From a virus: 64,000 bases of DNA. The notes under the pieces were generated by a model, which saw only the letters and a list, made by a program, of their open reading frames with translations, was not told the DNA's origin and did not search any database. Numbering within the stretch: the first letter of the stretch is position 1; every line of letters starts with the position of its first letter. The stretch is taken from IMG/VR virus record IMGVR_UViG_3300017748_000002, positions 1-64,000 of that record. One strand, 5' to 3'. Below are positions 23,997 to 64,000 of this stretch, in pieces. The position numbers were made by a program, and so were the translations under genes.

Positions 23997-24690
23997 AGTA
24001 GTACACGTAATAGGAAATGGAGACTCTGCAAGTCTTTATGAAAGACATAAGAGAGCAGGACTTAAGTTGTGTTGCAATCAAATTCCATTTGAAGTACCTG
24101 ATAAGTGGGCTACGGTAATGGTCGACTTTAAGATGATGGATGCTCTGACTCGTGGATTTAAAGGAGATCAAACCGGTTTACATATTGCAGGTAACTGGGT
24201 TCTAGGTTTTAGACCAAAGAAATGGATGGAGGATAGACCAACCTTTCATATGGCAAAAGCTTCACAGATTCGTGAATTCTATACAGATCTTCCTCGATAC
24301 ACCTGGGACAGAAAAAAAGGTGAGGATATGGGCCTGGGATATACTAACTGGAACTGCGGTCATATGGCTACTCACTATGCATGTAACAGACTCAAGGCTG
24401 ATGAAGTTCACATGTATGGCTTTGATTCTATCTTTGATTTCAACATGAATTCATTTACAGATCTTGTATTACAGTCTGATCGTGGTCTTATGAACAACCA
24501 ACGTTTGTCATCTAACTGGAGACCAATCTGGGAAAACCTCTTCAAAGAGTTTCCAAATACAAAGTTCAAATTACACTACTTCCATAATGCATTTAAGATT
24601 AAAGCACCGGACAATATAGAAGCAATTGTTTATTCAAAGAAAACTACCAAAGAAGCAGAAGTTAACTTTGATCAAATATCAGAAGCCTGA
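23989..24690 (+). CDS. Glycan-operon protein with Rossmann-like VIGNGDSAS start
   Basis: A 233-residue protein beginning VHVIGNGDSASLYERHKR, a Gly-rich loop like that of DUF115 or GT42-type proteins, followed by VMVDFKMMD and later MYGFDSIFD. This resembles proteins annotated as motility-accessory or sialyltransferase-like. It is the last plus-strand gene of the operon and converges with minus-strand genes, overlapping one by 19 bases. Function not assigned. Confidence 0.5.
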   Translation: MARVVHVIGNGDSASLYERHKRAGLKLCCNQIPFEVPDKWATVMVDFKMMDALTRGFKGDQTGLHIAGNWVLGFRPKKWMEDRPTFHMAKASQIREFYTDLPRYTWDRKKGEDMGLGYTNWNCGHMATHYACNRLKADEVHMYGFDSIFDFNMNSFTDLVLQSDRGLMNNQRLSSNWRPIWENLFKEFPNTKFKLHYFHNAFKIKAPDNIEAIVYSKKTTKEAEVNFDQISEA

Positions 24691-48656: not shown

Positions 48657-48690
48657 TAAATGAAAAAGACAAATATAACGGAGTGTCATA

Positions 48691-50766
48691 ATGTCTAACG
48701 TTGATATTCGCAGAGAAAAAATTGGAACGGAAATCGTTGATGTGTCGTTCATTCCTTTCATGCGTGGCAGAAAAGTTTTCTTTAAGGCACAAGGCCTTCG
48801 CCCTAACACTCGGTATTTTCCGTACTTTGGTAAGAAAGCGATTGATGATTACACACGTGAAGAAACAACGTTTAAATCATTTGCAGAACGTCAGGATGAT
48901 AATTCAAACGTTTTCCAAAAAGCACTTGCGCACCCTGATGGATCTACAAATCTAATTTCTGACGCTTCAGGTGTCATCATTGGTTCATTTGTTATTCCTA
49001 GCAGAGATAATTTTAAGTTTAGAACTGGTACTCGCGAATTTAAACTGGTAGATGTATCCGGTGCAGGTACTGATGAGTCCCAAGCTATTAGTACTGCTAG
49101 AGTTCCTTTTACTTCAACTGGTATTTTACAAACATATCAAGATACTGTTCGTGTTACAAGAATTGTTACAACAACACAGATTATTCGAAGAGATCCTCTT
49201 GCTCAATCATTCTTTGTAGATGCTGTTGAAAATAAGAATGGCATTTTTATAACAAAGATTAGAGCATATTTTGCAACAAAGTCAACTGGTGTTCCGGTTC
49301 AAATGCAAATCCGGCCAGTTGTCGCTGGTGTTCCATCAAATCAACCTTTACCAGATGCTTCTAAATTTTTAGATCCAGCTAGTATTAATATTCCAACTGA
49401 TGCGTCTGATCTCAATAATATTCGTTCACATGGTACAGACTTTGAATTTGATGAGCCAGTTTATCTAGAGCCAAATAAAGAATATGCCTTTGTTATTTTG
49501 GCAGATAGCGTTGATTATACTGTTTTTGTCGCAAAGACATATGAATTCTTGATTGGTTCAACCGAAGCAAGAGTTAATAAGCAACCTACTCTTGGTTCTT
49601 TGTTTATGTCTCAAAACTCTTCAACTTGGTCGCCAGATCAAGATCGTGATATGATGTTTCAGATATATCGCGCAGAGTTTGCAAGTTCTGGTTCAGCGTT
49701 GTTCACCAATGCTACAGACATACGTGAATTAACAAATGATAATCAACTTCTTGCTGATTCAGGTGGAACTGAATGTACAGTGTTTATGGTTGGCCACGGT
49801 CTCGCAAAGAACGATAAAGTCTTTATCTCTGGTGTATCAGACGCAGATGTAAGTGGCGCGTTTAGTTTTGCCAATTCCGTTACTGGATCAAGAACAATCA
49901 CAAAGGTAGATCATACCGGATTTACTTTTGCCGCTGACTCAAACGCTCAAGGATCTCTCTTTGTCGGTGGTGATGGCATGATCGTTACTCGTAACATGAT
50001 GTACGATAGATTCAGACCAAGTGTTCAAACGCTATTACCCGGAGCCGATACAACTCTTTCTGCTACGGCAAAATTAGTAAGTGGTTCTTCATACGCTGGA
50101 AATAGAAACACAAATCCAACATATACAAAAGACGGTGCATATACACCTATTACATTGAATGAAAATAACTTTTTAACAGCACCTTGTATTGTTTTAAACG
50201 ATTCAAATGCAGTTGTTCATAGCTTGTCTGGCGCCTCATTCGATATGAAAGTCGATTTTGCTACATCAGACACAAAAGTTTCACCAATTATCGATCTACA
50301 AAGATCTGATTTGATAATGCGTGAAAACATTATTGACAAACAGGATAATTCAGCTACAAGTGGATTCAATGTTCCAATTCGATTTGTTGATGAAACTGAT
50401 GCTAGTCTTGGTTCACATGCTGCGAAACACATTACAACACCAGTTACTCTTGAAGAACCAGCTGTTGGTTTGAGCATTAAGTTTGGTGCTAATCGTCCAT
50501 CCGCTGCAGGATTTAGAGTATACTTTAAGACTGGTACACCAGATGATAACCTTGATGATCTATCATACACTGAGTTAAGTGAAGTCACAAGCAATCCAGC
50601 TGATGAACAAGTTACAGTATTCCGTGAGTACGAATATCTTGCTGGTGGTGATGTTGGTAACCTTGATTCATTTACTCAATTCCAAGTAAAGATTGTTATG
50701 ACTTCAACAAATTCATCTAAAGTTCCTGCTATTACAGACTTAAGAGTGATTGCTCTAGTAACATGA
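48691..50766 (+). CDS. Large tail structural protein, partner of the DUF4815-like protein
   Basis: A 691-residue beta-rich protein starting DIRREKIGTEIVDVSFIPFMRGRKVFFKAQGLRPNTRYFPYFG. In other marine T4-like phages a similar IPFMR-VYFKAEGLKPNT element lies inside one long protein following a DUF4815-type part, so this gene looks like its separately encoded C-terminal half. Its C-terminal domain (LSIKFGANRPSAAGFRVYFKTG, then EYEYLAGG) resembles a lectin- or jelly-roll-like fold. Own ribosome site CGGAGTG. Confidence 0.6.
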   Translation: MSNVDIRREKIGTEIVDVSFIPFMRGRKVFFKAQGLRPNTRYFPYFGKKAIDDYTREETTFKSFAERQDDNSNVFQKALAHPDGSTNLISDASGVIIGSFVIPSRDNFKFRTGTREFKLVDVSGAGTDESQAISTARVPFTSTGILQTYQDTVRVTRIVTTTQIIRRDPLAQSFFVDAVENKNGIFITKIRAYFATKSTGVPVQMQIRPVVAGVPSNQPLPDASKFLDPASINIPTDASDLNNIRSHGTDFEFDEPVYLEPNKEYAFVILADSVDYTVFVAKTYEFLIGSTEARVNKQPTLGSLFMSQNSSTWSPDQDRDMMFQIYRAEFASSGSALFTNATDIRELTNDNQLLADSGGTECTVFMVGHGLAKNDKVFISGVSDADVSGAFSFANSVTGSRTITKVDHTGFTFAADSNAQGSLFVGGDGMIVTRNMMYDRFRPSVQTLLPGADTTLSATAKLVSGSSYAGNRNTNPTYTKDGAYTPITLNENNFLTAPCIVLNDSNAVVHSLSGASFDMKVDFATSDTKVSPIIDLQRSDLIMRENIIDKQDNSATSGFNVPIRFVDETDASLGSHAAKHITTPVTLEEPAVGLSIKFGANRPSAAGFRVYFKTGTPDDNLDDLSYTELSEVTSNPADEQVTVFREYEYLAGGDVGNLDSFTQFQVKIVMTSTNSSKVPAITDLRVIALVT

Positions 50767-50984
50767 TGAAACAACAAGTACAAGGGATGAACGGCTGGGT
50801 AAGAGATATACGTACTGGAGCCGTTATAAATACAAATACGAAAGATATAGCAAAAGCTAGGCATCGTAAAAAGGTTTGGAAAGAACAACAGGAAGAACTT
50901 GAAATACTTCGTAATGATGTTGCTATGATGAAACAAATGATGCAACAGATTTTAGAGGATAAAGATGGCTCAAACAACAATTAA
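50763..50984 (+). CDS. Small conserved T4-like virion-linked coiled-coil protein
   Basis: A 73-residue protein: QGMNGWVRDIRTGAVINTNTKDIAKARHRKK, then a coiled coil (EELEILRNDVAMMKQMMQQILED). This N-terminal pattern followed by a helix is found after tail-protein genes in many marine T4-like phages. Overlaps both neighbours (4 and 20 bases). Function unknown. Confidence 0.6.
   Translation: MMKQQVQGMNGWVRDIRTGAVINTNTKDIAKARHRKKVWKEQQEELEILRNDVAMMKQMMQQILEDKDGSNNN
50825..50832 (+). promoter_or_regulatory. Possible late promoter box (TATAAATA)
   Basis: Exact late box inside the 50763 gene, about 130 bases before the 50965 fibre-type gene. May be chance, as it lies in coding sequence. Confidence 0.3.
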
Positions 50985-51552
50985 TCTATCAGATCCTATT
51001 GCAACTTGGGTAACTAAGTCGAATGAAATGGGAGCCGATATTGGAGATCTAGCGACGCTAAGTGATTCAGCCGCGACGCTTGTTCATGCCATTAACGCCA
51101 TAGATTCAGATATTGGTAATCGAGCATCACTTACTACTCCGGCGGTTGACTTAGTAACTGCTATAAATAATCTTGCGAATACGTTCTTTGAGGTAACAGA
51201 TTCTGCTGATATTAAGAATTACTTTGTTAGTACTTCAGGTATTGGTGGCATTACGTTTGATAGCGGATCCGGTGGATCGCGTGGATCATTTACTCTTGTG
51301 AATGATGCAATTAACGCATCTAAGATTCAAGATTTTGCTGTCCAACAAGAACACTTTAATGATAGCTCTGTTCCAAGTCGAGCATTTAGAGCTCAGGTAG
51401 TTTCTAATTCGGCCTTAGCTGATTCTGCGGTATCATTTCACAAAATTCAAAGTGGAGCAATCAAATCGACTAACTTTGCTTCAACAACTAAATTAGAAAT
51501 TAAAAATTCAGCGGGAACAACGCTTAAAACAATGTACGGACCTGGAGTTTAA
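50965..51552 (+). CDS. Fibre-like structural protein
   Basis: A 195-residue protein, Ala/Ser/Asp-rich with helical N-terminus (WVTKSNEMGADIGDLATLSDSAATLVHAINAIDSDIGN) and a repeated SAL/DSAV pattern (VSNSALADSAVSFHKIQSGAIKSTNF), typical of phage fibre shafts. It lies with other tail-fibre genes. Target unknown. Confidence 0.6.
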   Translation: MAQTTINLSDPIATWVTKSNEMGADIGDLATLSDSAATLVHAINAIDSDIGNRASLTTPAVDLVTAINNLANTFFEVTDSADIKNYFVSTSGIGGITFDSGSGGSRGSFTLVNDAINASKIQDFAVQQEHFNDSSVPSRAFRAQVVSNSALADSAVSFHKIQSGAIKSTNFASTTKLEIKNSAGTTLKTMYGPGV

Positions 51553-52512: not shown

Positions 52513-53043
52513 ATGAAAACAAGAGACGGAAGATTAGTCAATGCTCGATTTACAGATACAGATAATACGCTGATCAGAGCAGAATTTAAAAATTATGAAA
52601 ACGATGGTGCTGTAACTATTGCGCACCATGCATTTAATCCTGAAAATAAAATTGTTCATGAAATTTTACAAGAGTTTTCTCCAGAAGATCTTGAGAGAAA
52701 CTACGTAGAATTTAATAAAGAAGAATCAATTCGCGTAGCTTACTTTAACAAGTTCGCCGAAAGATTTGATGAGATTGTTGACTATCTTGATTCCGGCGTT
52801 GCACCTCAAGCACCGGCCGAAGAAAAGCCAATTAATCTTACATCAATTAAAGAAATTGGAAATAATGCTGAAGAATTCTTTAAACTGAAACTTGAAGTAT
52901 TTGAACTTGAAGAAGTAAAAAATTCAAAGAATCGCAAATGGAAAGCGAGTATGCGAAAGGCAACTACCAGCCTCGAACTTCTCTCGTTACTTTATGAGGT
53001 GTATTCGACCCTTGAAAATGAAGAAGGCGAACGTCTGGATTAA
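52513..53043 (+). CDS. Tail-operon protein, unknown
   Basis: A 176-residue acidic protein. N-terminal small beta part (RLVNARFTDTDNTLIRAEFKNYEND), then helical (EILQEFSPEDLERNYVEFNKEESIRVAYFNKFAERFDEIVDYL). Last gene of the plus-strand tail operon. Its final 80 bases overlap the end of a minus-strand glycosyltransferase gene. No family recognised. Confidence 0.5.
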   Translation: MKTRDGRLVNARFTDTDNTLIRAEFKNYENDGAVTIAHHAFNPENKIVHEILQEFSPEDLERNYVEFNKEESIRVAYFNKFAERFDEIVDYLDSGVAPQAPAEEKPINLTSIKEIGNNAEEFFKLKLEVFELEEVKNSKNRKWKASMRKATTSLELLSLLYEVYSTLENEEGERLD

Positions 53044-53632
53044 ACTCTTCTCCAAGAAACAGGTACTCTCCAGGATAGCGCAAGTTAGCGTCTAAAATAA
53101 AGTTATTGTTATACTGAGCCCACTTATTCCAATTAGTCATCCAAGTTTCGGGTAAGAATTTAAGCTTCAGTCTTTCTTTTACAGAGTCTTCTACAAAATA
53201 CTGTTCACCATTAACGGGGCCGCAAGTGGTCCCGTTTTTGATATAATACTCCATCCAATATTCAGAATCCGACACAAATTTATCATAGATGTATTTACAA
53301 TCTTTTGGATAATACTTTTGAAATCCACCTTGTAGTCTATAATTTAATTCTGGATCTACATCATCCCACCAACAATATGCTCCAATAAACTCACCGCGTT
53401 CGATCGGATAATTTATCGCATCCATATAATCATTGATAAAGCTCATATCTATATCAATAACTACGACTGGTTCGTCGATATCTAAAGACATTGGAACTAA
53501 CTTATTCCATTGTGCTTTTCCAATAGTCTCTTCACGAATCCAATTTACGTTTGGTATTTTTGAATCAATGTACTCTTCGTATTCTGGGCCGTATTTGTCG
53601 CCAGTACGGACAGCGTAGACTCGTGGTTCCAT
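52964..53632 (-). CDS. Glycosyltransferase-like protein with DxD motif
   Basis: A 222-residue protein. RTGDKYGPEYEEYIDSKI at the N-terminus matches the KWGDKYGPEYVNRLY start of the 57005 gene, so the two are related. DxD is in PVVVIDIDMSFIND near 55. The C-terminus DVRLLHFQGSN has the His common at the donor site. Last gene of the minus-strand operon; converges with the tail operon. Confidence 0.6.
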   Translation of the reverse strand: MEPRVYAVRTGDKYGPEYEEYIDSKIPNVNWIREETIGKAQWNKLVPMSLDIDEPVVVIDIDMSFINDYMDAINYPIERGEFIGAYCWWDDVDPELNYRLQGGFQKYYPKDCKYIYDKFVSDSEYWMEYYIKNGTTCGPVNGEQYFVEDSVKERLKLKFLPETWMTNWNKWAQYNNNFILDANLRYPGEYLFLGEEFNPDVRLLHFQGSNTPHKVTREVRGW

Positions 53633-54138
53633 AGTTCGTCCTTCGCATGATTGTATAGTGTGATTGGCATTTTACCACCATCCCACAAATATGAATCACA
53701 TACTTTATCGTAAGTATTATATTCTATTTCTTTGTATAAAAACTCGTCAATGCCTTTATTATATTTTACCATATAATAGTCAGGATCTTCAGCAAACTTA
53801 TCATGAATATGCGAGTGATCTCCTGACCAAGACATGATAGAACTATTCAATGGTGTATGAAAAGGCTGCCTCCACCATGCGTGAAGAAGAGTAAATTTAT
53901 CACGCCAAAGATGATCGATAGTGCCCCCAATAAAAACGTCGAGATCAAAATACAGGTATTGTCCGGTTTTAAAAAGATCAAACAGGCGAAGCTTATCATA
54001 CACACCACCGTATAAAATATCGTCAACAACAGATAGTCTATCATATTGAGCTCCTATGTTATCTAGCATATATTCTATATTGTGTATCCAATATGATTGT
54101 CCATACGCTGGTGGTGTGTTGAGTAATACTATTTCCAT
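53545..54138 (-). CDS. Glycosyltransferase-like protein with DxD motif
   Basis: A 197-residue protein with IVLLNTPPAYGQSYWIHNIEYM at the N-terminus and YLYFDLDVFIGG near 61-72 as the metal site, then FTLLHAWWRQPFHTPLNSSIMSW. It overlaps the next gene by 88 bases in another frame; the overlapping end (about 28 residues) looks like a later extension. Six- to eight-base overlaps link it to the radical-SAM gene upstream. Confidence 0.6.
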   Translation of the reverse strand: MEIVLLNTPPAYGQSYWIHNIEYMLDNIGAQYDRLSVVDDILYGGVYDKLRLFDLFKTGQYLYFDLDVFIGGTIDHLWRDKFTLLHAWWRQPFHTPLNSSIMSWSGDHSHIHDKFAEDPDYYMVKYNKGIDEFLYKEIEYNTYDKVCDSYLWDGGKMPITLYNHAKDELWNHESTLSVLATNTAQNTKSTLIQKYQT

Positions 54139-55052
54139 TTTTCAACCATCGTGTCGAGTTTACAATGACAAGAAATAATATCACAAGTATACGGATCAGC
54201 CGGTAATCTCCACACTGTATTAACGTTTCCAAGTGGCAAGTCAGCTCCAGCACAACATCTTCGAATAGTACCATCTGCTTCAACAGATAAGCTTTTAATA
54301 CCAGCCATACATTTCCATCCACGGAAATCTACTTCTTTGTTAGCGATCATATCAGGATGAGCTCGTTCTTCTCCATCGATATAGATTTTCCAAGGATACG
54401 GCCAGTTAACTTTTAATGGCAAGCATCTTTTCTCTCTCGATTGAGTGATCCACTTAATTTGTTCAGGACTATAATCCATTAGCTTACCATCGCCTTGAAT
54501 ACTTACTCGAGTCAATTTAGCATTCACATCAACAGTAGCTTTACTTTCTATAATTCTTTCAACTAACTTTTGAGCTCTATCGAAATTTTCAGGAGTCACT
54601 TGTAAATTAGCGACAATCTCTCCTTTTGATTGCATTGCTTGAATTACGTCAAAGAAATGATCATCGTCAGCAAACTCATAATGCCAACTGAATACAATGT
54701 AAGCATTAAGATCTTCAGGCCATTGATTCCAATATCGTAAAGTGCGACTTCCATTTGTACAAATTTCAATAATTCTATTTGGAGAGTTAATCTTTTTACA
54801 GAATTCGTCAAACTTTGGCATGAGTGTTGGTTCACCACCTAACAAGGATACTAACATATACTCATTATTCTTTTCAAAGTCGTTGAGAAGATCTACATAG
54901 TTTTCCCAGTCAGCTGGCCATCTGTTTTTTCCGCCATAATGATATGGATGACAATAGCTACACTTATAATTACACACGTCATGAAGCATGATATTTACAA
55001 TGCCGCAATCTGGATTGTTGTTTGTAATTCTCATACGATTATCTATTTCCAT
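54129..55052 (-). CDS. Radical SAM protein with C-terminal SPASM/twitch-like Cys region
   Basis: A 307-residue radical-SAM enzyme. The cluster motif is CNYKCSYC (Cys27, 31, 34); SLLGGEPTL is the GGE SAM-binding motif near 72. The C-terminal region WKCMAGIKSLSVEADGTIRRCCAG and a late SCHC give the Cys set of a SPASM/twitch auxiliary cluster. Such enzymes modify peptides or sugars by radical chemistry. It is most like its upstream neighbour (55043). Confidence 0.8.
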   Translation of the reverse strand: MEIDNRMRITNNNPDCGIVNIMLHDVCNYKCSYCHPYHYGGKNRWPADWENYVDLLNDFEKNNEYMLVSLLGGEPTLMPKFDEFCKKINSPNRIIEICTNGSRTLRYWNQWPEDLNAYIVFSWHYEFADDDHFFDVIQAMQSKGEIVANLQVTPENFDRAQKLVERIIESKATVDVNAKLTRVSIQGDGKLMDYSPEQIKWITQSREKRCLPLKVNWPYPWKIYIDGEERAHPDMIANKEVDFRGWKCMAGIKSLSVEADGTIRRCCAGADLPLGNVNTVWRLPADPYTCDIISCHCKLDTMVEKWK

Positions 55053-55930
55053 TTAGTTAGTATAGTTTCAAGCCGACAGGTACAAGGTTTATGAGTATCA
55101 CAAATGATCGGATCTTTCGGAAGCTCAAAATACGTATTAATATTTCCTAAGCTACCACCTACTTGTTTTGTGCATCGCCATATTTCGCCATTGGTGTGTA
55201 CATAAATTCTATCAAGGCCAGCATTACATTTCCACCCTTGAAACCAATAGTTTTCTGATGCTATCATTTCTGATAATTTGCCGGCACTACACTCGAGTGG
55301 TAAAACAAAGTTTGGACCTGATTGAGTATTATTCCAATAATGAGATTGAATCCATTTTTTCTGTTCATCAGTATATTCAAAATAGTCAGGTCCGTCGATC
55401 ACGACTCGAGTAAACTTTGGAATTGCTTCTACTCTTAATTTTTTTTCTACTATTCTATGGTATAGTGCTTGTCCTCTTTCGTAATTATCTGGAGTCAATA
55501 AGAATGTAGCCACACACATAGCTTTGTCTTGCATGATCTCGAGAACATCAAGGTAATGGTCGTCATCTGCTTCTTCATGGTGCCAACTAAAGAGAGCAGT
55601 TGCTGTATGTTTTGGTAAGCTTTCCCAGTACCGCTTTGTTCTACTTCCATTAGTAGCGTATTCAATGTACGTACGATCATCACTAATATAATCTATAAAG
55701 TCATGAAACTTTGGCCATAAAGTTGGCTCACCACCGAGAATCTGAACATACACATATTTCTTTTTTTCTTTGATCTCGTCAATTAGATCAAGGTATCCAT
55801 CCCACTTAGTAGGCCAACGGTACGACCCATCGCGATGTTCATCACTACAATAGCTACAATTAAAATTGCAGACATTATGGACAAACAACGAGACAATACA
55901 GCAATCTGGATTTGAGTTAATTATTTCCAT
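55043..55930 (-). CDS. Radical SAM protein with C-terminal SPASM/twitch-like Cys region
   Basis: A 295-residue enzyme with CNFNCSYC (Cys21, 25, 28), ILGGEPTLWP near 70, and the C-terminal GWKCNAGLDRIYVHTNGEIWRCTKQVGGSLGNINTYF. Paralogue of the 54129 gene; both begin with an NPDC-type segment. They overlap by ten bases and so are co-translated. A double of the same architecture may act in sequence or as a heterodimer. Substrate unknown. Confidence 0.8.
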   Translation of the reverse strand: MEIINSNPDCCIVSLFVHNVCNFNCSYCSDEHRDGSYRWPTKWDGYLDLIDEIKEKKKYVYVQILGGEPTLWPKFHDFIDYISDDRTYIEYATNGSRTKRYWESLPKHTATALFSWHHEEADDDHYLDVLEIMQDKAMCVATFLLTPDNYERGQALYHRIVEKKLRVEAIPKFTRVVIDGPDYFEYTDEQKKWIQSHYWNNTQSGPNFVLPLECSAGKLSEMIASENYWFQGWKCNAGLDRIYVHTNGEIWRCTKQVGGSLGNINTYFELPKDPIICDTHKPCTCRLETILTKWK

Positions 55931-56556
55931 TTGCCGAGTATCATGTACCTCGTATATTGATCTGGAGTACCTTCATTAAATCTCTTCTTACCACCATAGA
56001 GTTCTTTGACATCAGCCTGAGCTGCGAGCTCTTGACCGGTCTTGACACAGTTAATATGGTCTGGTTCGTTTGTCTTGTCATTTGACTGTAGAGCTAAAAG
56101 AGTACGCTCAGGTTCTTCATAATACTCTTTTGTTGTGTTCATATTCCACATATGCTCACATGAAGTATTTATTACTAAATGTGTACGTCTTTTTTCTGTA
56201 TAAGTAAAGTAGTCCTGATTAAAAATACGTACGTTGTCATAACCAAAAAGATCACAATACTTCCAAATCATTTTACACGCCCATGAGTCAATCTCAAAAA
56301 TATCGATCTCACGAATTTGAATATTCCACTCATCCATTAGAAATTGAATAAGAGGAAACCCATACCATCCACCAATGATTTCTACACGAAACTTTCCGTT
56401 CTCATCTCTCGGAATCTGAACGTTTGGTAAACCTTCATAAACCAGCCACTCTTTACACTTAATCTGGTTTGGATGCAAAGAATCTATCCAACGATCTAAC
56501 ATAAATGAATGATTGTGACGAAGCCATTTCATCATTTCAGCATATTCAAGTTGCAT
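55921..56556 (-). CDS. SAM methyltransferase-like protein
   Basis: A 211-residue Rossmann-type protein. VEIIGGWYGFPLIQFLMDEW near 59-78 could be the SAM loop, IDIFEIDSWACKMIWKYC has the acidic end of strand 2, and VINTSCEHMWNM near 130 is the post-strand-4 motif with Glu/His. First gene behind the minus-strand sigma70-like promoter. It overlaps the radical-SAM gene by ten bases. Substrate unknown. Confidence 0.6.
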   Translation of the reverse strand: MQLEYAEMMKWLRHNHSFMLDRWIDSLHPNQIKCKEWLVYEGLPNVQIPRDENGKFRVEIIGGWYGFPLIQFLMDEWNIQIREIDIFEIDSWACKMIWKYCDLFGYDNVRIFNQDYFTYTEKRRTHLVINTSCEHMWNMNTTKEYYEEPERTLLALQSNDKTNEPDHINCVKTGQELAAQADVKELYGGKKRFNEGTPDQYTRYMILGKWK

Positions 56557-56586
56557 ATACTACCCTCCGGATTAAATTCTTACTTT

Positions 56587-56615
56587 ATTATACACCATTT
56601 ATGTTCTCCCGTAAA
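56587..56615 (-). promoter_or_regulatory. Minus-strand sigma70-like promoter inside a gene end
   Basis: Minus strand: -35 TTTACG at 56615-56610, 17 bases, -10 TATAAT at 56592-56587. It lies over the last codons of the 56599 gene and drives the methyltransferase-radical-SAM genes. GGAGGG precedes the ATG at 56556. The box eight bases upstream reads AACTCA, partly like TGCTCA. Confidence 0.7.
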
Positions 56616-57012
56616 CAATAAAATGAGTTTTCTGCTCACTTATTATTTCAAACGAATCGTATATTTCTTTGACATTATACCATCCAACTAGATCTTCGAC
56701 AGATTCAACTGGACAACAATCTCCGTTATGCTTTTCGTTATCACCGATGAGTAGTACATCTCCTTCGAGTGTAATAGGATATGTTTTTTCGCAGTTAGCA
56801 TGAACAACTAAATCAGCATTAAGATCTACGTCGTCAAACACGAAATCCTTGTTAATAAAGATAGGGCTATTCATGAATTTTGGATCGTAGTCAATTCCTT
56901 TTACGTTGATACCACATGATGCTAACTTATGTAGAAAATCTTTTCGAGCATTGCATGCTAAGAATATGATAGAATCATAGTTAAAGTATATCGATTCAAA
57001 TTTATCAATCAT
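56599..57012 (-). CDS. Small SAM-methyltransferase-like protein
   Basis: Starting at ATG 57012 gives 137 residues; an earlier ATG at 57093 would read back into the preceding gene and is less likely. YDSIIFLACNARKDFLHKLASCGINVKGIDYDPKF is a shortened SAM-binding fold, and ADLVVHANCEKTYPI is its strand-4 part. It overlaps the glycosyltransferase upstream by eight bases. Being small, it may lack a substrate-binding part. Confidence 0.55.
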   Translation of the reverse strand: MIDKFESIYFNYDSIIFLACNARKDFLHKLASCGINVKGIDYDPKFMNSPIFINKDFVFDDVDLNADLVVHANCEKTYPITLEGDVLLIGDNEKHNGDCCPVESVEDLVGWYNVKEIYDSFEIISEQKTHFIVYGRT

Positions 57013-57697
57013 AGCTTTTCCATAATTTAACTGTATCTTTGTCAGCCTCGTCGAGCTCGTATGACTCCTCCACGATACCTTTGTTCCTCGCAATATGGGA
57101 TGTATTGAAAATAGAAATCTTTCCTTTTAACTCGAATCCTTGCCGATTATAATTTGTCACAAACCCTTCATCCCAGAACTTGAGACGATTATTTCTATGG
57201 TGTTGATAAAAGAGATATTTATCTAGAGACTTATATGTCCACTCAATCTTCTTCCAATTGTCATTAGTAAACTGAATAAGCCACTCAGGATTGTTGAACT
57301 TTACAAAAGAACTATTGACATGACAAGAACCGCCTTTACCATACCAAAGTAAAGATCGCTCGCGATAATCATTCCAATAGTTCCAAATCATGGTAAAATC
57401 GTTATCATTTTCAATGTCTGTAATATCGTCATGAATTAGCACGTCTAAATCAAGCCACACACCCTTCTCGTGTTTTTCCATAAGAATCAACTTCTCATAG
57501 GTAAACACACGATCCGTATCAAATTTTCTTAATGATTTGATATTTTTTACCTTTACTTCTTCGCGTAACATGTTATAATTATCTGTATAGCATGTTAATG
57601 TAAAGGGTTTTTTATAGTGCTTTTTGAGGCCGCCGTACAGCCGATTTACGTATTCGGGACCGTACTTGTCGCCCCATTTCAGTGTATAGAAATCCAT
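57005..57697 (-). CDS. Glycosyltransferase-like protein with DxD motif
   Basis: Start at ATG 57697 (GAGG eight bases upstream) gives 230 residues beginning DFYTLKWGDKYGPEYVNRLYGGL, related to the 52964 gene. TLTCYTDN near 33 and KGVWLDLDVLIHDDI near 85-98 (DxD) are clear GT-A features. First gene of the minus operon. Its start codon abuts the late box of the divergent operon. Confidence 0.65.
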   Translation of the reverse strand: MDFYTLKWGDKYGPEYVNRLYGGLKKHYKKPFTLTCYTDNYNMLREEVKVKNIKSLRKFDTDRVFTYEKLILMEKHEKGVWLDLDVLIHDDITDIENDNDFTMIWNYWNDYRERSLLWYGKGGSCHVNSSFVKFNNPEWLIQFTNDNWKKIEWTYKSLDKYLFYQHHRNNRLKFWDEGFVTNYNRQGFELKGKISIFNTSHIARNKGIVEESYELDEADKDTVKLWKSYD

Positions 57698-57705
57698 TAT
57701 AAATA
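57698..57705 (+). promoter_or_regulatory. Late promoter box (TATAAATA) for the plus radical-SAM operon
   Basis: Exact late box 33 bases before the ATG at 57738. AAAGG lies near the start codon. The box directly abuts the start codon of the minus-strand gene, so the two operons share 40 bases of control region. Confidence 0.65.
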
Positions 57706-57737
57706 CCTCGTGTAACACTATATATAAAGGTTTCATT

Positions 57738-59162
57738 ATGAGCGTAGATGATCAGTTCCCCTCCTCCACTTTTTGTGCTTTACCGTGGATGCATCTTTCT
57801 ACTAGACCAAATGGTCATATGAGAGTATGTTGTACTGCGAATGCTTCAGGCGTCGCAGTAAACGCGAGCTCTACCAATAAGACTGTTTCAGAGTCTGGTG
57901 TACTTCGTAATGATGACGGTAAACCATCAAATCTCGCCACCACCGGTTTGATGGAATCGTGGAATAACGAATATATGCGTGGCGTTAGAAGGATGATGTT
58001 AAATGGAGAACAACCAAGCTCCTGTACAAAATGTTATAAAGAAGAAGAAGCTGGCCACATTTCTAAAAGAATCTGGGAAACTCGTAAGTGGATCAAAGAC
58101 CAAGGCGGGATTGAACCAATTATCGAAGGCACAGCAGAAGATGGATCAGTGGCTCCAAGAATACGCTATATCGACCTTCGCCTTGGCAGTAAGTGTCAGC
58201 TTGCATGCGTTATGTGCTCTCCTCATGATTCAAGTAATTGGGTAAAAGAACATAAAAAGATTTACCCTACACTTGAAAACAACAATCTGAAAAAGTCAAT
58301 GGCTTGGGAAAAAGAATCCGGCAAGTTAGCTTGGTCAGGTGGATCCTACAATTGGCATAAGAAGAATCCAAAGTTCTGGGATGAACTATACGAAACACTT
58401 CCGCATCTACGTCAATTGTACTTTGCTGGTGGTGAGCCACTCATTATGGATGAGCACTACATGTTGCTTGAGAAATGTATTGAAGATGGATTAGCACCAG
58501 ACATTGAATTACGTTATAACTCAAATGGTATTGAGTGGCGTGATGACTTGTTTGATCTATGGTCAAAGTTTCGTAATGTTATCTTTCACTTCAGTGTAGA
58601 TGACATTGAGATGAGAAATCATTTCATTCGGTATCCATCTAACTGGGAAGTTATTACAGGTTCAATTCAAAAGATGGATGATTATCCACACGGCAATCTT
58701 ACATTGACAACAGCCACAACAATTATGGCACTTAATATTATGTACATGCCAGAATTTATTAAATGGAAACTTGAATCAAACTTTAAGTTACTCAACAAAT
58801 GGCCAAATGGTGCCGGCATTTTCAATTGTCATCTTGCTTATTGGCCACCACAACTCAACGTAAAAGTTTTGCCTGAATGGTTTAAACAAGAAGTCAGACA
58901 GAAATATGAAGAAGAGTTGTATCCATATCTAGAAGAAAACTGGCAAAAATGCACAGGAGTAGAAGCTACTGACTATGATACATGGCGCAATTCCGAATAT
59001 GGAATCAATAGACTAGAAGGACTACTTACTTTTATGGAAGCTGAAGATTGGTCTGAAAGATTACCTGAAACTGCTGAATGGTGTTATAAAGTAGGAAAAG
59101 AAAGATTCCTTGATTTCAATGAAGTCTTTCCAGATCTCGATTGGTTGGAGTGGTATAAATGA
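57738..59162 (+). CDS. Radical SAM protein with N-terminal twitch-like domain
   Basis: A 474-residue protein. The N-terminal Cys region (Cys13 in FCALPWMHL, CC at 31-32, CTKC at 96-99 followed by YKEEEAGH) resembles a SPASM/twitch domain placed ahead of the core. The radical-SAM motif is CQLACVMC (Cys153, 157, 160), with FAGGEPLI near 235. C-terminal helices (LLTFMEAEDW) finish the protein. First gene of the late operon. Substrate unknown. Confidence 0.8.
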   Translation: MSVDDQFPSSTFCALPWMHLSTRPNGHMRVCCTANASGVAVNASSTNKTVSESGVLRNDDGKPSNLATTGLMESWNNEYMRGVRRMMLNGEQPSSCTKCYKEEEAGHISKRIWETRKWIKDQGGIEPIIEGTAEDGSVAPRIRYIDLRLGSKCQLACVMCSPHDSSNWVKEHKKIYPTLENNNLKKSMAWEKESGKLAWSGGSYNWHKKNPKFWDELYETLPHLRQLYFAGGEPLIMDEHYMLLEKCIEDGLAPDIELRYNSNGIEWRDDLFDLWSKFRNVIFHFSVDDIEMRNHFIRYPSNWEVITGSIQKMDDYPHGNLTLTTATTIMALNIMYMPEFIKWKLESNFKLLNKWPNGAGIFNCHLAYWPPQLNVKVLPEWFKQEVRQKYEEELYPYLEENWQKCTGVEATDYDTWRNSEYGINRLEGLLTFMEAEDWSERLPETAEWCYKVGKERFLDFNEVFPDLDWLEWYK

Positions 59163-60481
59163 GTACGTTTTGTCCATTAGCTTGGAACTCAATTAATTTA
59201 AGAAATAATGGTGATCTTCGGATTTGTTGTAATACCAACAGCTATAGTCCGAAGAAAGGTATCATGCGTAAAGAAGATGGTACACCGTATAACGCTGGTC
59301 GTGACGATTTAAATGAAGCACGTAATGCTGAGATTGTAAAGGACGTTCGTGTTTCAATGATGAAAGGCGAATGGAATCCTGAATGTGAACGTTGCCGCCA
59401 AGAAGAAGTGAATGGTATTAGATCAAGGAGAGAATATGAATCAGAAGATTGGGACCTTACGCTTGAAGAGGCTATGGAAAAAACTAACGAGGACGGATCC
59501 ATTGATCCTACTGATTTTGATATCGAGTTTTTCGATATTCGTTACGGCAATTTCTGCAACCTTAAATGCCGTATGTGCGGGCCCACCGACAGTCACATGT
59601 GGTATTCAGATCATGTCGCCCTTTACAATACCACCAAGTATAAAGATACTCACGATCTCATCCAACTGACTAAGAATGAAAAAGGTAAATGGTCTACAGA
59701 CCAGTATGACTGGTTTAAGAACTCAAACTTCTATTGGAATAACTTCGAGAAACATACTGGTAAAGCAAAGAAACTTTACATTGTAGGTGGTGAACCACTC
59801 ATCATTGAAGAACACTTTGAATCACTTGAAAGATTGATTGCTGCGGGTAGAGCCAAAGACATTCAGATTGAATACAACAGTAACCTGACTAACGTTACTG
59901 ACCGCATCATGAAGATATGGGAAGAGTTTAAACAGGTTCGTATTGGTGTTTCAATCGATGGTTATGCTGATGTGTTTGAATATCAAAGAACACCAGCTAA
60001 GTGGAAGTCTGTTTATAAAAACATGAAAAAACTAAACGACAATCCGAATATTAATTTAAAGGGTTGGTTTGCTTTTACAGTAACTCCGTTTAATGTATTT
60101 CATTTGCCTGAGTTTATGAAATGGAAACTTGAAGAATCTGGACTCACACGGTATAATCCTATCACTGGTCCACGTCCTATTATTACTCAACATATGTGTC
60201 ATTCACCAAAGTATTACAATGTGAAAGTTCTACCGCAAATGTTGAAGGATGAAGTCTGTGATACATACCAGGAGTACATTGATTGGGTAATGGATTCAAA
60301 TCATTCTGATCATGTGAAAAAGAAATTTATTGAGATACTCGATGGTATTATGGATTTTATGAATTCCGAAGATTTTGCAACAGACCATTTGCAAGAGTTT
60401 ATTGACCATACAAAGAAACTTGATTTGATACGTGGCCAGAATATTTTAGATGTAGTGCCACAATACGAGGGATTATTTTGA
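59159..60481 (+). CDS. Radical SAM protein with N-terminal twitch-like domain
   Basis: A 440-residue paralogue of the previous gene. N-terminal Cys5 (FCPLAWNSI), CC 23-24, CERC 76-79; cluster motif CNLKCRMC (Cys133, 137, 140); VGGEPLIIEEHFE near 200; VRIGVSIDG near 265 (strand with acidic residue). It overlaps the first gene by four bases. Same late operon. Confidence 0.8.
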   Translation: MSTFCPLAWNSINLRNNGDLRICCNTNSYSPKKGIMRKEDGTPYNAGRDDLNEARNAEIVKDVRVSMMKGEWNPECERCRQEEVNGIRSRREYESEDWDLTLEEAMEKTNEDGSIDPTDFDIEFFDIRYGNFCNLKCRMCGPTDSHMWYSDHVALYNTTKYKDTHDLIQLTKNEKGKWSTDQYDWFKNSNFYWNNFEKHTGKAKKLYIVGGEPLIIEEHFESLERLIAAGRAKDIQIEYNSNLTNVTDRIMKIWEEFKQVRIGVSIDGYADVFEYQRTPAKWKSVYKNMKKLNDNPNINLKGWFAFTVTPFNVFHLPEFMKWKLEESGLTRYNPITGPRPIITQHMCHSPKYYNVKVLPQMLKDEVCDTYQEYIDWVMDSNHSDHVKKKFIEILDGIMDFMNSEDFATDHLQEFIDHTKKLDLIRGQNILDVVPQYEGLF

Positions 60482-61428
60482 AACAGGTAGCACAAAGAAT
60501 TAGTTGGAGAACACCTGAGACTCCGTTTGCCGTTCAATGGTACATGACACCAAGATGTAATTTTGATTGTGTCTACTGTATGCCATGGGATCCGGATAAT
60601 AAGTGGTCATACTATCATGACGATAAATCTAAACCACCAACATTTGATATAATGAAAACTTACGTAGATAAGATTATTGCTCATAGGGGAAATCATATTG
60701 AATGGGGTCTTGGCGGTGGCGAACCAACTGTTATTAAAGATCTTCCAAAGCTAGTAAAATATATTCGAAAAACAGATCCGTATGACTTGACAATTTGTAC
60801 AAATGGATCTTTACCAGAAAAGAAGCTTTTAAAATTATATGAAGATCTTGACGGTATGGTTATGTCATTACACATGGACTATGTTTCAAAGAATCCAGAT
60901 GAATATATCGAGAAATTGATTGCTCTCGAAGAACAACGTAGACCTGACCAAAGTTTGACAGCACGGTTTATTGTCAATCCTCTTCATATGGAATTGATCG
61001 ATAATATGTACCAAGAACTCATGATGGCTAGTATTAATAAGATCGATTTTCGAAATGTAAAGCTATTCAACGGTGAATCATTTTATAGTAATGAGCAAAT
61101 TAAAGTGATGGAATCATGGTACGACGAGTATGGTAAACAGACATCTAATATCATTCAAACGTTTGAAGATGGATCTGAAAAAGAAGTTAATTATGAATTA
61201 ATCACTTTGAATAATGAACATTCATACACTGGTTGGTCATGTATGGCTGGTATCGAACAATGCAATATTGATCCACTTGGAAGAGTCTCGGTTGGTAATT
61301 GTGCAGTTGGAGGATCTATTGGTAATTTAAATGATAATGATTTTACTTTCCCAACTGCACCTGTGACATGTACTAAACAATGGTGTTTAGATTATTGCGA
61401 TATTCGTACGACAAAATGGAAACCTTAA
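60478..61428 (+). CDS. Radical SAM protein with C-terminal SPASM/twitch-like Cys region
   Basis: TTG start at 60478 within TTGA overlap, GAGGG upstream, 316 residues. Cluster motif CNFDCVYC (Cys27, 31, 34), GLGGGEPTVI near 80, and a C-terminal SCMAGIEQCNIDPLGRVSVGNCAVGGSIGNLN with a late CLDYC. This is the same architecture as the two minus-strand enzymes, here between two N-twitch enzymes. The next gene overlaps it by 13 bases. Confidence 0.8.
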   Translation: MKQVAQRISWRTPETPFAVQWYMTPRCNFDCVYCMPWDPDNKWSYYHDDKSKPPTFDIMKTYVDKIIAHRGNHIEWGLGGGEPTVIKDLPKLVKYIRKTDPYDLTICTNGSLPEKKLLKLYEDLDGMVMSLHMDYVSKNPDEYIEKLIALEEQRRPDQSLTARFIVNPLHMELIDNMYQELMMASINKIDFRNVKLFNGESFYSNEQIKVMESWYDEYGKQTSNIIQTFEDGSEKEVNYELITLNNEHSYTGWSCMAGIEQCNIDPLGRVSVGNCAVGGSIGNLNDNDFTFPTAPVTCTKQWCLDYCDIRTTKWKP

Positions 61429-62615
61429 ACTATTCTCAAACATTCTGTCCGATGCCTTTCAATCATTCTTATATCGGACCTGAGCAAATTAAAAAACCTT
61501 GCTCGCGATTTCTATTTCCGGAAATTGACCATGACAACTATGATCAATTCATTAAAGAACTTCAACAGTACAAGTTAAAAGGTGAAAGACATCCGGGTTG
61601 CCGTAAGTGTTGGGAAGAAGAAGATGCTGGTCGAAAAAGATCACTAAGGCAAATTCATCTTGAAGTCGGTGGATTTAACTATCCATTAGTACACGATCTA
61701 GATCCTCATGATCCAAAAATTCGTTGGCTTGAATTAGCATTTTCAAATCGTTGTAATATTCGCTGTCGTATGTGTGGTCCTTTCTACTCAACAAACTGGT
61801 TTAAAGATTGGGTAGCAGTAAATGAATATGCTTTTGGTGTACCGGGTGTAGGTAAAAAGAAAGAAGACATTGAAACATGGTTAGCAACAAATGGTAATAA
61901 ACCACAAGGGTTTGACATATCGGAATTAGATGAGCATATCCCACATTTACGTATGGTAAAGATGACTGGTGGAGAGCCGTTCATCATTCCGGAATATCAA
62001 CAAATTCTAGAACGTATTGATGAGATTGGTAACGCCGAAGGTATGTGGTTGAACTATAGTACTAACCTTACAGTCCGTCCAAAGAAAAGACTCAAAGAAC
62101 TCTGGCAAAAATACGAAAAGATAATGTTTGCTGCTTCGCTTGATGGAGTAGGGCATTTCCAAGAATACCAAAGATATCCGACTCAATGGTGTGACGTGAA
62201 ACAAGTGATGGATGATCTAATGGAGATTCCTAATTCTTGGGTTGGAGTCAGATCAACTATTACGATCTATAATGTTCTCAACATGTCAGGTATTGCTAAC
62301 TGGTTTGCTGAGCAAGAAGATAAATATCATGGATTCAGCGAAGACAGTTGGTTGAATTTTGTAGCTGTGTCTGAGCCAAATTTCTTATCAATCACCGTTT
62401 TACCAAAGTGGGCTAAAGATATGGTAGCTGAAAGATTATCATGGTCTGCACCATCAAGAAAAGTCCAAGATAATTTTGATCAAATAATCAATTATATGTA
62501 CAACCAAGATAATTCACACCTTCTTCCAAAATTCAAAGATTACACGAATAAATTAGATGCTGTTCGTAATGAAAGTTTTAAAGAAGTCAACCCTGAATTT
62601 GCGAGTCTAGTATGA
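61416..62615 (+). CDS. Radical SAM protein with N-terminal twitch-like domain
   Basis: ATG 61416 gives 399 residues. N-terminal Cys11 (FCPMPFNHS), Cys29, GCRKC at 61-65 followed by WEEEDAG; cluster motif CNIRCRMC (Cys113, 117, 120); KMTGGEPFIIPEYQ near 190; MFAASLDG strand. Third member of the N-twitch group in this operon. Overlaps the PLP gene by four bases. Confidence 0.8.
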   Translation: METLNYSQTFCPMPFNHSYIGPEQIKKPCSRFLFPEIDHDNYDQFIKELQQYKLKGERHPGCRKCWEEEDAGRKRSLRQIHLEVGGFNYPLVHDLDPHDPKIRWLELAFSNRCNIRCRMCGPFYSTNWFKDWVAVNEYAFGVPGVGKKKEDIETWLATNGNKPQGFDISELDEHIPHLRMVKMTGGEPFIIPEYQQILERIDEIGNAEGMWLNYSTNLTVRPKKRLKELWQKYEKIMFAASLDGVGHFQEYQRYPTQWCDVKQVMDDLMEIPNSWVGVRSTITIYNVLNMSGIANWFAEQEDKYHGFSEDSWLNFVAVSEPNFLSITVLPKWAKDMVAERLSWSAPSRKVQDNFDQIINYMYNQDNSHLLPKFKDYTNKLDAVRNESFKEVNPEFASLV

Positions 62616-63517
62616 AATACGAAGAGTTATCATTTGACGATCTAGGAACTAAACGGCAAAGGCCGATGTTTTTAAGTACCTTTACTCAATTTCGTGCTAG
62701 CATGAATATGAGAACATACCCACATGATCCTCATGCTTATACAAAACACTTCTTAAATGAAATTGATATGTGGATTCATGCTCATAAATGGGTTCAGTAT
62801 AGAGGATTAGAACGCTTTCCAATACGTGAAGCCATACATGGAACGACTCATACACTTGATGAATTGCATTATCTACATAAAGGAAAGATTTGTGTGTTTG
62901 ACGGTGAATACAGATATCACGAAAGATTGCTTGGTTGGAAATTAAAAAAGATAAAAGCTGCTGATGAAATTTCGTTTGGTGATGTTCTTGTAGTATCATA
63001 TCCATCGTGTATTACTACAAATTATCTTCCAGATTTTGATGAAGTTCTTGATCATTGCTATAAAATAAATGTGCCAGTTCATATTGATGGAGCTTGGTTT
63101 GGTCAGTGTCGAAACTTTTATTTTAATGCTAGCCATCCAGCAATTCAATCAGTGTCTGTATCTTTATCGAAAGCTCTTGGTATGGGATCAAATAGAATTG
63201 GTATTCGTTACAGCCGAGAAAAAGTCGCAGGTCCTATTTCTATTATGAATGACTATAATTATTGTAATGTGTCTGATATGTGGATCGGTGTTGAAATGAT
63301 GAAATACTATGGTCCTGATTTTTGGTGGAAAAATTATACACCGTTGTATCAAAAAGTGTGTAAAGACTTTGGTTTAGAAGAATGCCACTCAATTCATCTT
63401 GGCAAAGGTGATACATATTATGGAATACGTACACCACTTCGATTGTTAATTGAAGGTAAGTACGATGAGCGTGGAACTGATAGAGGATTAAATGACATCG
63501 AAAGAAACGAAAAATAG
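62612..63517 (+). CDS. PLP-dependent fold-type I enzyme
   Basis: A 301-residue aminotransferase-fold protein. VPVHIDGAWFGQCRNF has Asp159, which would bind the PLP pyridine, and VSVSLSKALGMGSNRIG has Lys187 as Schiff-base lysine. It is shorter than usual (about 350-400). Aminotransferase, decarboxylase or lyase activity cannot be separated. In the radical-SAM operon it may act on an amino group of the same product. It overlaps the oxygenase gene. Confidence 0.7.
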   Translation: MKYEELSFDDLGTKRQRPMFLSTFTQFRASMNMRTYPHDPHAYTKHFLNEIDMWIHAHKWVQYRGLERFPIREAIHGTTHTLDELHYLHKGKICVFDGEYRYHERLLGWKLKKIKAADEISFGDVLVVSYPSCITTNYLPDFDEVLDHCYKINVPVHIDGAWFGQCRNFYFNASHPAIQSVSVSLSKALGMGSNRIGIRYSREKVAGPISIMNDYNYCNVSDMWIGVEMMKYYGPDFWWKNYTPLYQKVCKDFGLEECHSIHLGKGDTYYGIRTPLRLLIEGKYDERGTDRGLNDIERNEK

Positions 63518-64000
63518 AATCATTGATAATCCATTTGACATGGATACAATTGACATGATTCTTGAAAATACTCAAGATGAGCGTAGATACCTCGGTAAAG
63601 AAAAAAAGAACTGGGTACGAAGATTACCTGAAGCTGCTCAAGAATATATGAATAGACAGATGGATTGTTTCCAAGGTCGGTGGGTCTTTGAATACTTTCA
63701 TTCTGATGTCAATGTTTTATATCATACCGACACTATCCCTGGTAATGATGGTGATCTTGGTTGTATTGTTCCGATTGATTGGAGTGGTCATCAACCAGCA
63801 ACTCTTATGTACAAATGGTGGTCAGATCGAAGAGTAATATATGCTGGGTCAAATCAAGTTCGATATGAAGACACTGGTGAATTAGAATACTTACATTTAG
63901 GTTATCATTCAGTTGATATGATTTTTGAATGGGATAGAGAGAAAGCGCTTATATTCGATTGTAAGCAATTACATTCAGCTCGAAAGTTTAATCAAAGCGC
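63492..64000 (+). CDS. 2OG-Fe(II) oxygenase-like protein (partial)
   Basis: ATG 63492, reading past the window end (169 codons seen). VLYHTDTIPGNDGDLG contains the HxD pair (His78, Asp80); IFDCKQLHSARKF near 155-166 contains the distal His161 and Arg164, which would bind iron and 2-oxoglutarate. That is the set of a prolyl-hydroxylase-type oxygenase. It would hydroxylate a product or protein made by the same operon. The 3' end lies outside the window. Confidence 0.6.
   Translation, partial: MTSKETKNRIIDNPFDMDTIDMILENTQDERRYLGKEKKNWVRRLPEAAQEYMNRQMDCFQGRWVFEYFHSDVNVLYHTDTIPGNDGDLGCIVPIDWSGHQPATLMYKWWSDRRVIYAGSNQVRYEDTGELEYLHLGYHSVDMIFEWDREKALIFDCKQLHSARKFNQS

Follow-up and report, generated by a model that had tools for sequence, protein, structure and literature searches.

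A host recognition cluster has been described in pelagimyophages as an island extending from VrlC to gp14 and carrying tail fibres and glycosyltransferases (Zaragoza-Solas et al. 2020, PMC7029224). In that study the region is hypervariable, cassettes of radical-SAM (rSAM) genes are recorded as a difference between two pelagimyophage genomes, and O-chain modification is proposed for the GT8 enzymes. Numerous rSAMs are also present in the T4-like Campylobacter phages CP220 and CPt10 (11–12; PMC2853527) and in the T4-like marine genome TARA_ERS488813_N000010 (12, reported as Fe-S metabolism; PMC5332604). A preliminary description of the locus considered here called its density of such genes unusual in a phage, which is only partly so given these published genomes, the pelagimyophage cassettes (PMC7029224) and related viral records with 4–18 rSAMs each. 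Reports of abundant rSAMs in T4-like phages date back to 2010 and assign them no function; here these enzymes are resolved into three families and a fixed core. Since rSAM-rich T4-like phages are already published, the kind is known; the new part is a core shared with Bdellovibrionota, relatives of predatory bacteria, which appears to be undescribed.

Genomic setting and extent of the cassette

The window, the whole 64-kb stretch that was analyzed, is the first part of a 123-kb T4-like viral record and contains no tRNA genes. The record's gp23 is 66% to that of C48C1, a member of the Kyanoviridae for which no host is given, and 59% to those of HTVC008M and the Methylophilales phage Melnitz. 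The baseplate gene VrlC, which is split into two plus-strand ORFs (45543–48656 and 48691–50766; 32–33% to VrlC of the Pelagibacter phage Mosig and 36–37% to a single C48C1 ORF), bounds the host recognition cluster on its left. Tail-fibre matches are present at 50965–51552 and in genes 115 and 117, and a conserved plus-strand gene that adjoins the tail-fibre genes (52513–53043; orthologues in C48C1, 37%, and in the related viruses G002, 67%, and G003, 54%) forms the left flank of the cassette, which is inserted between conserved tail genes 84 and 115. On the right side, 84502–86178 contains orthologues of the C48C1 head-tail adaptor and head closure. The island therefore has two hallmarks of a host recognition cluster, i.e. 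the VrlC-to-neck position, and tail-fibre genes together with many glycosyltransferases, and is best explained as the rSAM-rich variable island of a pelagimyophage-like T4 phage.

The cassette ends at 79,410 in the record, beyond the window, and its whole span (52,964–79,410) includes ~30 tightly packed genes that abut or overlap, the widest gap being 42 nt. They form two divergent operons, as initially described, with seven genes on the minus strand followed by 23 on the plus strand that continue past the window end. Six rSAMs had been reported between 52,964 and 64,000, and all were found; this count is an understatement, as a whole-record scan identified 12 rSAM genes within 26.4 kb, six of them past the window end in the same record. 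The CX3CX2C motif is intact in all 12, and GGEP is present in each of the six window rSAMs. Alongside the rSAMs, which belong to three families (N-twitch [NF033640], gene-114 type and rSAM-B type), the cassette encodes the methyltransferase MT89, an FkbM methyltransferase, five DxD glycosyltransferase-like proteins (two with PHROG matches), a NodU/TobZ-like carbamoyltransferase, a QueC-like PP-loop enzyme, a PLP-like protein and six GDSL/SGNH-like proteins with weak matches. Several of the glycosyltransferase assignments are weak, being drawn from motifs or low-scoring matches. The encoded enzymes are soluble, with no membrane segments predicted among the cassette proteins, and the cassette contains no flippase, polymerase or membrane protein.

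The record also includes an Fe-S carrier gene and, elsewhere, a second glycosyltransferase region (17113–24690) with a UDP-galactopyranose-mutase-like gene, UDP-sugar epimerase/dehydrogenase genes (117445–119215), and a dCMP hydroxymethylase gene (114661–115341; T4 gp42 match, E 1.5e-67) situated 40 kb from the carbamoyltransferase gene.

The two operons within the window

The minus-strand operon (genes 85–91) contains the three DxD glycosyltransferase-like genes noted previously. Two of these, genes 86 (53545–54138) and 91 (57005–57736; DLD motif), match phrog_1962 (E 5.2e-5 and 4.2e-7, respectively), and gene 86 is 47% to Mosig_00094 of the same cluster; the third, gene 85 (52964–53632), has a DID motif and orthologues in G002 and G003 (66–71%) and no family match in Pfam/PHROG-type searches. 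A weak homologue of gene 85 is present in Mosig. Gene 91 probably starts at ~57697, judging from the starts of its orthologues in G002 and G003. Genes 87 (54129–55052) and 88 (55043–55930) encode rSAMs of the gene-114 family (PF04055 E 3e-11 and 2.5e-12; family HMM E 2e-28 and 1e-20), with the motifs CNYKCSYC and GGEP in gene 87 and a dN/dS of 0.05 against G001 for gene 88. Gene 89 (55921–56556) encodes MT89, for which an AlphaFold2 model (pLDDT 91) has a class I SAM methyltransferase fold. Sequence searches of the PDB gave nothing useful for MT89 or for GT-IAY, a frequent neighbour of the core, and fold comparison was informative instead, GT-IAY having a GT-A-like predicted fold with low TM. 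Of the two methyltransferases initially proposed MT89 is retained and gene 90 (56599–57093) is left without assignment, as it is methyltransferase-like by eye only (MT89 HMM E 0.022).

A T4-type late promoter box, TATAAATA, is located on the plus strand at 57698–57705, 40 nt upstream of gene 92, and is kept in G001 and G003 and replaced by AATAAATA in G002. Among the 20 late-type boxes in the record, 14 precede a gene start by no more than 100 nt, compared to 2.05 expected. We infer that the main, plus-strand operon is expressed late, together with the virion genes, from this predicted promoter. The minus-strand operon has no late box. In distant relatives a late box lies upstream of the gene 92 type (TW92) in only 4 of 82 cases, and this scarcity rules out late expression from such a promoter as a general rule for these cassettes.

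Gene 92 (57738–59162, plus strand, as are those that follow) encodes the core-type N-twitch rSAM, TW92, and scores 400 bits against NF033640; genes 93 (59159–60481; 373 bits) and 95 (61380–62615; 293 bits) also exceed the curated cut-off of 170 bits and have orthologues in G001–G003 at 70–94% and 57–90%, respectively. Genes 98 and 100 are placed in the N-twitch family by our own profile only. The auxiliary-cluster cysteines of TW92 (C13, C31, C96 and C99) are invariant across 12 relatives. Gene 94 (60478–61428) is of the gene-114 family (PF04055 E 8.5e-14; family HMM E 2e-15). Five of the six window rSAMs pass the PF04055 cut-off; gene 95 scores 27.9 bits against a cut-off of 29.5 bits, and 30 bits in the whole-record scan. 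Gene 96 (62612–63517) had been described as a PLP enzyme, and a match does exist albeit a weak one (valine-pyruvate transaminase, E 1.2e-4; 28% to a Mosig ORF); its family is present in 14 viral and five bacterial-assembly loci. The proposed 2OG-Fe(II) oxygenase-like protein, gene 97 (63492–64000, extending to 64,034 in the record), has His and Asp residues recognizable by eye (HTD...H) and orthologues in G001–G003 (44–91%), with no family match in profile searches.

A conserved core and its candidate functions

Three related viruses (G001–G003) share the gene order, the rSAM motifs are intact and the rSAM genes are under purifying selection (dN/dS mostly 0.05–0.17), in agreement with the original proposal of one coherent pathway. 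Among 88 related viral loci, the gene-114 type is present in 74, rSAM-B in 77 and the MT89 family in 73, and 69 contain all three rSAM families together, usually plus a class I methyltransferase. Viral cassettes also contain Asp/Asn hydroxylases and nucleotide-sugar enzymes (DegT/DnrJ/EryC1, epimerase, UDP-glucose dehydrogenase, RmlD and cytidylyltransferase).

The three-rSAM core is also found on Bdellovibrionota chromosomes, amid family-2 glycosyltransferases (GT2). These account for 11 of the 109 non-core neighbours of the core versus 54 in the 13.2 Mb of four genomes (Fisher p 4e-12, for loci that are partly dependent on each other), an enrichment that could stem from a shared genomic neighbourhood. 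The Bdellovibrionota genomes G018–G021 have no gp23, which rules out prophage or misbinning as the sole source of the bacterial copies; two bacterial-assembly loci (L120 and L121) have gp23 on the contig and are phage-derived or misbinned. The best explanation is that phages add differing glycosyltransferases and caps to a three-rSAM core unit also used by some Bdellovibrionota, and the chromosomal copies enable the core to be studied outside infection.

We consider it somewhat probable that the cassette specifies a late, cytoplasmic pathway by which an unusual sugar is made or attached, the acceptor most likely being a virion tail component. The choice of a sugar is supported by relatives, whether viral, cellular or cultured phages, that encode glycosyltransferases and nucleotide-sugar enzymes. 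The rSAMs of all three families, which each have an auxiliary-cluster domain, would perform C-H radical chemistry on a sugar or glycan intermediate, perhaps a dehydrogenation, an epimerization or a C-C/C-H change; the methyltransferases and carbamoyltransferase would cap the tailored sugar, and the glycosyltransferases would transfer the residue to its acceptor. Tail modification, as suggested at the outset, fits the cassette location and late promoter, with the acceptor itself putative. As cells without gp23 also have the core, a core substrate found strictly in virions is less likely.

Rather less likely, the same sugar pathway targets a host surface glycan, either for superinfection exclusion or to mask receptors and so prevent progeny loss on debris. 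The O-chain modification proposed for pelagimyophage GT8 enzymes in PMC7029224 and the other sugar genes of the record (17113–24690 and 117445–119215) are consistent with this, but the main operon is apparently late, its genes lie between tail genes, and with neither membrane protein nor flippase nor polymerase in the cassette a host-surface target would require host machinery.

The preliminary description left the product as a sugar or a peptide, and the second of these is now improbable. Most characterized SPASM/twitch rSAMs modify peptides, among PDB profiles the sactipeptide enzyme SkfB best matches the TW92 core domain, and the Asp/Asn hydroxylases would also suit modification of tail-protein side chains or of a ribosomal peptide. 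However, since the genes abut or overlap with no gap above 42 nt, no separate (non-overlapping) precursor gene fits in this record (G000), and no YcaO, RRE, lanthipeptide or exporter family is among the 25 most frequent viral-cassette families (28 rarer ones are outside this set); nucleotide-sugar enzymes are present instead. A RiPP cluster is rejected on the same grounds.

Hypermodification of DNA, with the gp42-like enzyme making hydroxymethylcytosine (hmC) for the cassette to decorate, is very unlikely despite the co-occurrence of dCMP hydroxymethylase and carbamoyltransferase and the existence of phage hmC carbamoyltransferases (PMC8670742). A gp42 gene is absent from all 11 of the other cassette-bearing viral records examined, the carbamoyltransferase belongs to the NodU type (gene 108 is 24% to a validated hmC enzyme and 42–46% to the NodU-like proteins that other cassette phages encode), and bacteria lacking gp23 also have the core on their chromosomes; we have dropped hypermodification as a general function. 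The lack of any single pathway, with rSAM and glycosyltransferase genes loosely collected at a tail-fibre locus prone to recombination, might account for the hypervariability of the region in this phage group (PMC7029224) and for the SGNH and some glycosyltransferase genes that differ between close relatives, but is scarcely credible given the conserved order, the presence of the whole core trio at 69 of the 88 viral loci and the low rSAM dN/dS. Queuosine/deazaguanine synthesis is rejected, the PP-loop protein being weakly QueC-like (E 2e-5) and the rSAMs below QueE cut-offs.

Returning to sugar tailoring, we tentatively suggest in broader terms that three auxiliary-cluster rSAMs and a class I methyltransferase constitute an undescribed pathway, present in many environmental viruses and some Bdellovibrionota and expressed late by this phage, that would equip the adhesion apparatus or cell surface with a new carbohydrate modification made by radical chemistry. 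Should the product prove to be a glycan of the tail or surface, this would be new radical carbohydrate chemistry in adsorption by abundant ocean viruses.

Comparison with known systems

Vibrio phages K566 and K567 (OZ196521, OZ196593) have no gene-114 or MT89 homologue within the stretch searched, and four TW92-type rSAMs are close together in K566. TARA_ERS488813_N000010 resembles this record in being T4-like and marine with 12 rSAMs and an Fe-S carrier gene. CP220 and CPt10 have a five-rSAM module with a glycine amidinotransferase, adjoined by two nucleotide-diphospho-sugar transferases (PMC2853527); three of the five rSAMs are rSAM-B homologues, the gene-114 and TW92 profiles match weakly, MT89 has no match, and the module lies beside baseplate/PAAR genes without a VrlC flank. 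The pelagimyophage host recognition cluster occupies the same island position, although here there are 12 rSAMs in 26 kb, and the portions of PMC7029224 compared make no mention of a conserved rSAM core, of its families or of counterparts in cells.

The cultured Pelagibacter phage Mosig EXVC030M (MT647606) has a cassette at the same site, from VrlC to the gene-115 orthologue (Mosig_00070–00100), with homologues of MT89, rSAM-B, the carbamoyltransferase, glycosyltransferases 85 and 86, the PLP protein 96 and SGNH. It is a reduced version with three MoaA-annotated rSAMs, neither N-twitch nor a close gene-114 homologue being found at the site, and has as extras an ArnB-annotated aminotransferase, an FA-desaturase-domain protein and an FMN reductase. 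Because this small version is carried by a cultured SAR11 phage, the question of the product is directly testable.

Gene content and location of the cassette

From its gp23 gene (95184-96512) and its orthologues in Phage C48C1 (Kyanoviridae), the 123,332-base IMG/VR record, of which the window covers positions 1-64,000, is a T4-like virus. Order is kept with C48C1 for most structural and replication genes, and the closest gp23 matches are to C48C1 (66%), Methylophilales phage Melnitz (59%) and Pelagibacter phage HTVC008M (59%). The six radical-SAM (rSAM) genes reported in the preliminary description were all found, each with CX3CX2C and GGEP motifs, and the cluster extends past the window end to 79,410, with six further PF04055 proteins beyond 64,000 giving a total of 12. 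This part also encodes an FkbM methyltransferase (65189-65857), a QueC-like PP-loop protein (67872-68618), a NodU/TobZ-type carbamoyltransferase (72915-74237), two additional DxD proteins and six GDSL/SGNH-like proteins (weak matches), five of them in a diverged tandem array (74186-78317; L009:11186-15317). The minus strand carries seven genes (52964-57736) and the plus strand 23. Nearly all adjacent genes overlap, and the 30 proteins all lack hydrophobic membrane segments.

Pelagimyophages are described as having a 'host recognition cluster' that runs from VrlC to the neck gene gp14 and contains many GT8 glycosyltransferases, and within which rSAM cassettes distinguish two genomes (PMC7029224). 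Here the baseplate gene VrlC lies to the left (45543-50766) and the neck genes to the right (84502-86178), and the cassette is therefore inside this cluster. VrlC is split into two ORFs, rather than the single ORF of the related contig G003, C48C1 and Pelagibacter phage EXVC030M (Mosig). The flanking tail-region genes 84 and 115 are separated by 26.4 kb of enzyme genes, whereas their C48C1 orthologues are ~1.5 kb apart. Gene 92 is preceded, at a distance of 40 nt, by a T4-type late box (TATAAATA) that two of three relatives conserve and the third has in variant form, and a second box precedes gene 115; across the record 14 of 20 such boxes have a gene start no more than 100 nt downstream (2.05 expected). 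The boxes speak for late transcription of the plus operon, although in distant relatives a late box is generally not found upstream of N-twitch genes (4 of 82). A second glycosyltransferase-rich region (17113-24690) encodes several DxD proteins; it also holds a gene, assigned by eye, that resembles UDP-galactopyranose mutase (18689-19777; phrog_9677, function unknown).

Conservation of the rSAM core

Using profiles built in this analysis, the 12 rSAMs sort into three families: N-twitch (NF033640; genes 92, 93, 95, 98 and 100, the three in the window scoring 293-400 bits against a cut-off of 170), the gene-114 family (genes 87, 88, 94 and 114) and rSAM-B (genes 104, 105 and 106), which has GN/GAxGD in place of GGEP. 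Conservation is highest for gene 114, with 48-69% identity in the alignment over phages and Bdellovibrionota. Three related contigs (G001, G002, G003) retain most of the cluster in unchanged order at roughly 55-94% identity, although no orthologues of genes 99, 103 and 107 were found in them and close orthologues of 87, 88 and 94 are missing from G002. The preliminary description had allowed that co-occurrence might not be conserved in related phages, or that several genes might be inactive copies with broken motifs; the conserved order, the intact motifs of its six rSAMs and rSAM dN/dS values of 0.045-0.17 (against G001) argue against both. The SGNH array differs strongly among close relatives, in contrast to the conserved adjacent rSAMs.

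An N-twitch alignment scan recovered >500 viral relatives. Among 88 viral loci the gene-114 family is present in 74, rSAM-B in 77, the gene 89 methyltransferase (MT89) in 73 and the neighbouring protein GT-IAY in 41; 69 loci hold members of all three rSAM families. Viral records carry 4-18 rSAMs, compared with one in C48C1 and 11 in CP220. The MT89 model (pLDDT 91) matches class I SAM methyltransferases. GT-IAY, which is not in our record though frequent in other cassettes, has as top PDB matches GT-A glycosyltransferases including RmlT, WrtF and SunS (model pLDDT 93), with low TM-scores of 0.3-0.4. A conserved ~73-aa protein (L121:8669-8893 and 21 more copies; 19 viral and three bacterial-assembly loci) often sits between MT89 and rSAM-B and is a possible small partner of the core; it is missing from our record, and a family search gave nothing above cut-off.

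The three families, often with GT-IAY and MT89, are also found on Bdellovibrionota contigs of up to 936 kb with ordinary chromosomal genes on both sides, and gp23 was absent from all four core-bearing genomes tested. The distribution within the phylum is patchy (12 of 192 genomes), and in the gene-114 tree these sequences group together between two viral groups. Family-2 glycosyltransferases are the top Pfam among 109 non-core neighbours at 11 loci (11 proteins, compared with 54 over the 13.2 Mb that four of the genomes comprise; Fisher p 4e-12, assuming ~1 gene per kb and with related loci). Two other apparent bacterial carriers, the MAG contigs PAAV01000055.1 (L120, labelled Chloroflexi) and NZGL01000008.1 (L121, labelled Gammaproteobacteria), contain gp23 and are misbinned T4-like phages.

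Possible functions

The most economical reading is that the cassette specifies a cytoplasmic sugar- or glycan-tailoring pathway. Pfams in viral cassettes, among 25 listed of 53 families, include DegT/DnrJ/EryC1, epimerase, UDP-glucose dehydrogenase, RmlD, cytidylyltransferase and NTP-transferase. The twitch enzyme BtrN and the SPASM enzyme NeoN have aminoglycoside substrates, and BlsE modifies a nucleoside sugar; rSAM-B matches the BlsE-type cytosylglucuronate decarboxylase profile at E 0.001, too weak to prove a substrate. In this phage the cassette would be transcribed late, together with virion genes, and the virion (tail) is the preferred candidate acceptor over the host surface because of the cassette location, the late promoter and the lack of export machinery. 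Glycosylated virions are known from mycobacteriophages (cited in PMC12619734).

What made a role in DNA modification worth considering seriously is a gp42-like dCMP hydroxymethylase gene in the record (114661-115341; L011:11661-12341), which adjoins a dCMP deaminase gene. Its product matches T4 gp42 at E 1.5e-67 as against ~1e-5 for thymidylate synthases, and the phage probably has hydroxymethylcytosine DNA. However, no gp42-like gene is present in 11 other cassette-bearing viral records (which may be fragments), and the cassette carbamoyltransferase is just 24% identical to a validated hmC enzyme (PMC8670742). RiPP synthesis is disfavoured, as neither a precursor nor, among 25 listed of 53 cassette families, hallmark proteins were found. 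Elsewhere in the record, a short GGGCSGFTY...CGCG protein (108378-108659; L011:5378-5659), in a PHROG family without known function, resembles an A-type Fe-S carrier and could supply the numerous Fe-S enzymes.

Relation to known phages

Mosig has cassette homologues at the matching site, between VrlC and the gene-115 orthologue: MT89 (E 1e-30), rSAM-B (E 3e-26), the carbamoyltransferase (32%) and glycosyltransferase 86 (47%), with homologues also of glycosyltransferase 85, PLP protein 96 and SGNH proteins. They adjoin an epimerase and an aminotransferase annotated as UDP-4-amino-4-deoxy-L-arabinose type. The cultured Vibrio phage K566 (L170, 161548-168284) has four N-twitch rSAM genes, one annotated as hypothetical, and is a further isolate suited to functional tests.

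We found no prior description, in the open-access papers searched, of the three-family core, its MT89 association or its Bdellovibrionota counterpart. Phages of this rSAM-rich T4-like type are nonetheless already known, including CP220/CPt10 with 11-12 rSAMs (PMC2853527), a marine genome with 12 (PMC5332604) and the pelagimyophage cassettes, and the cassette described here is therefore a fresh version of a known phenomenon.
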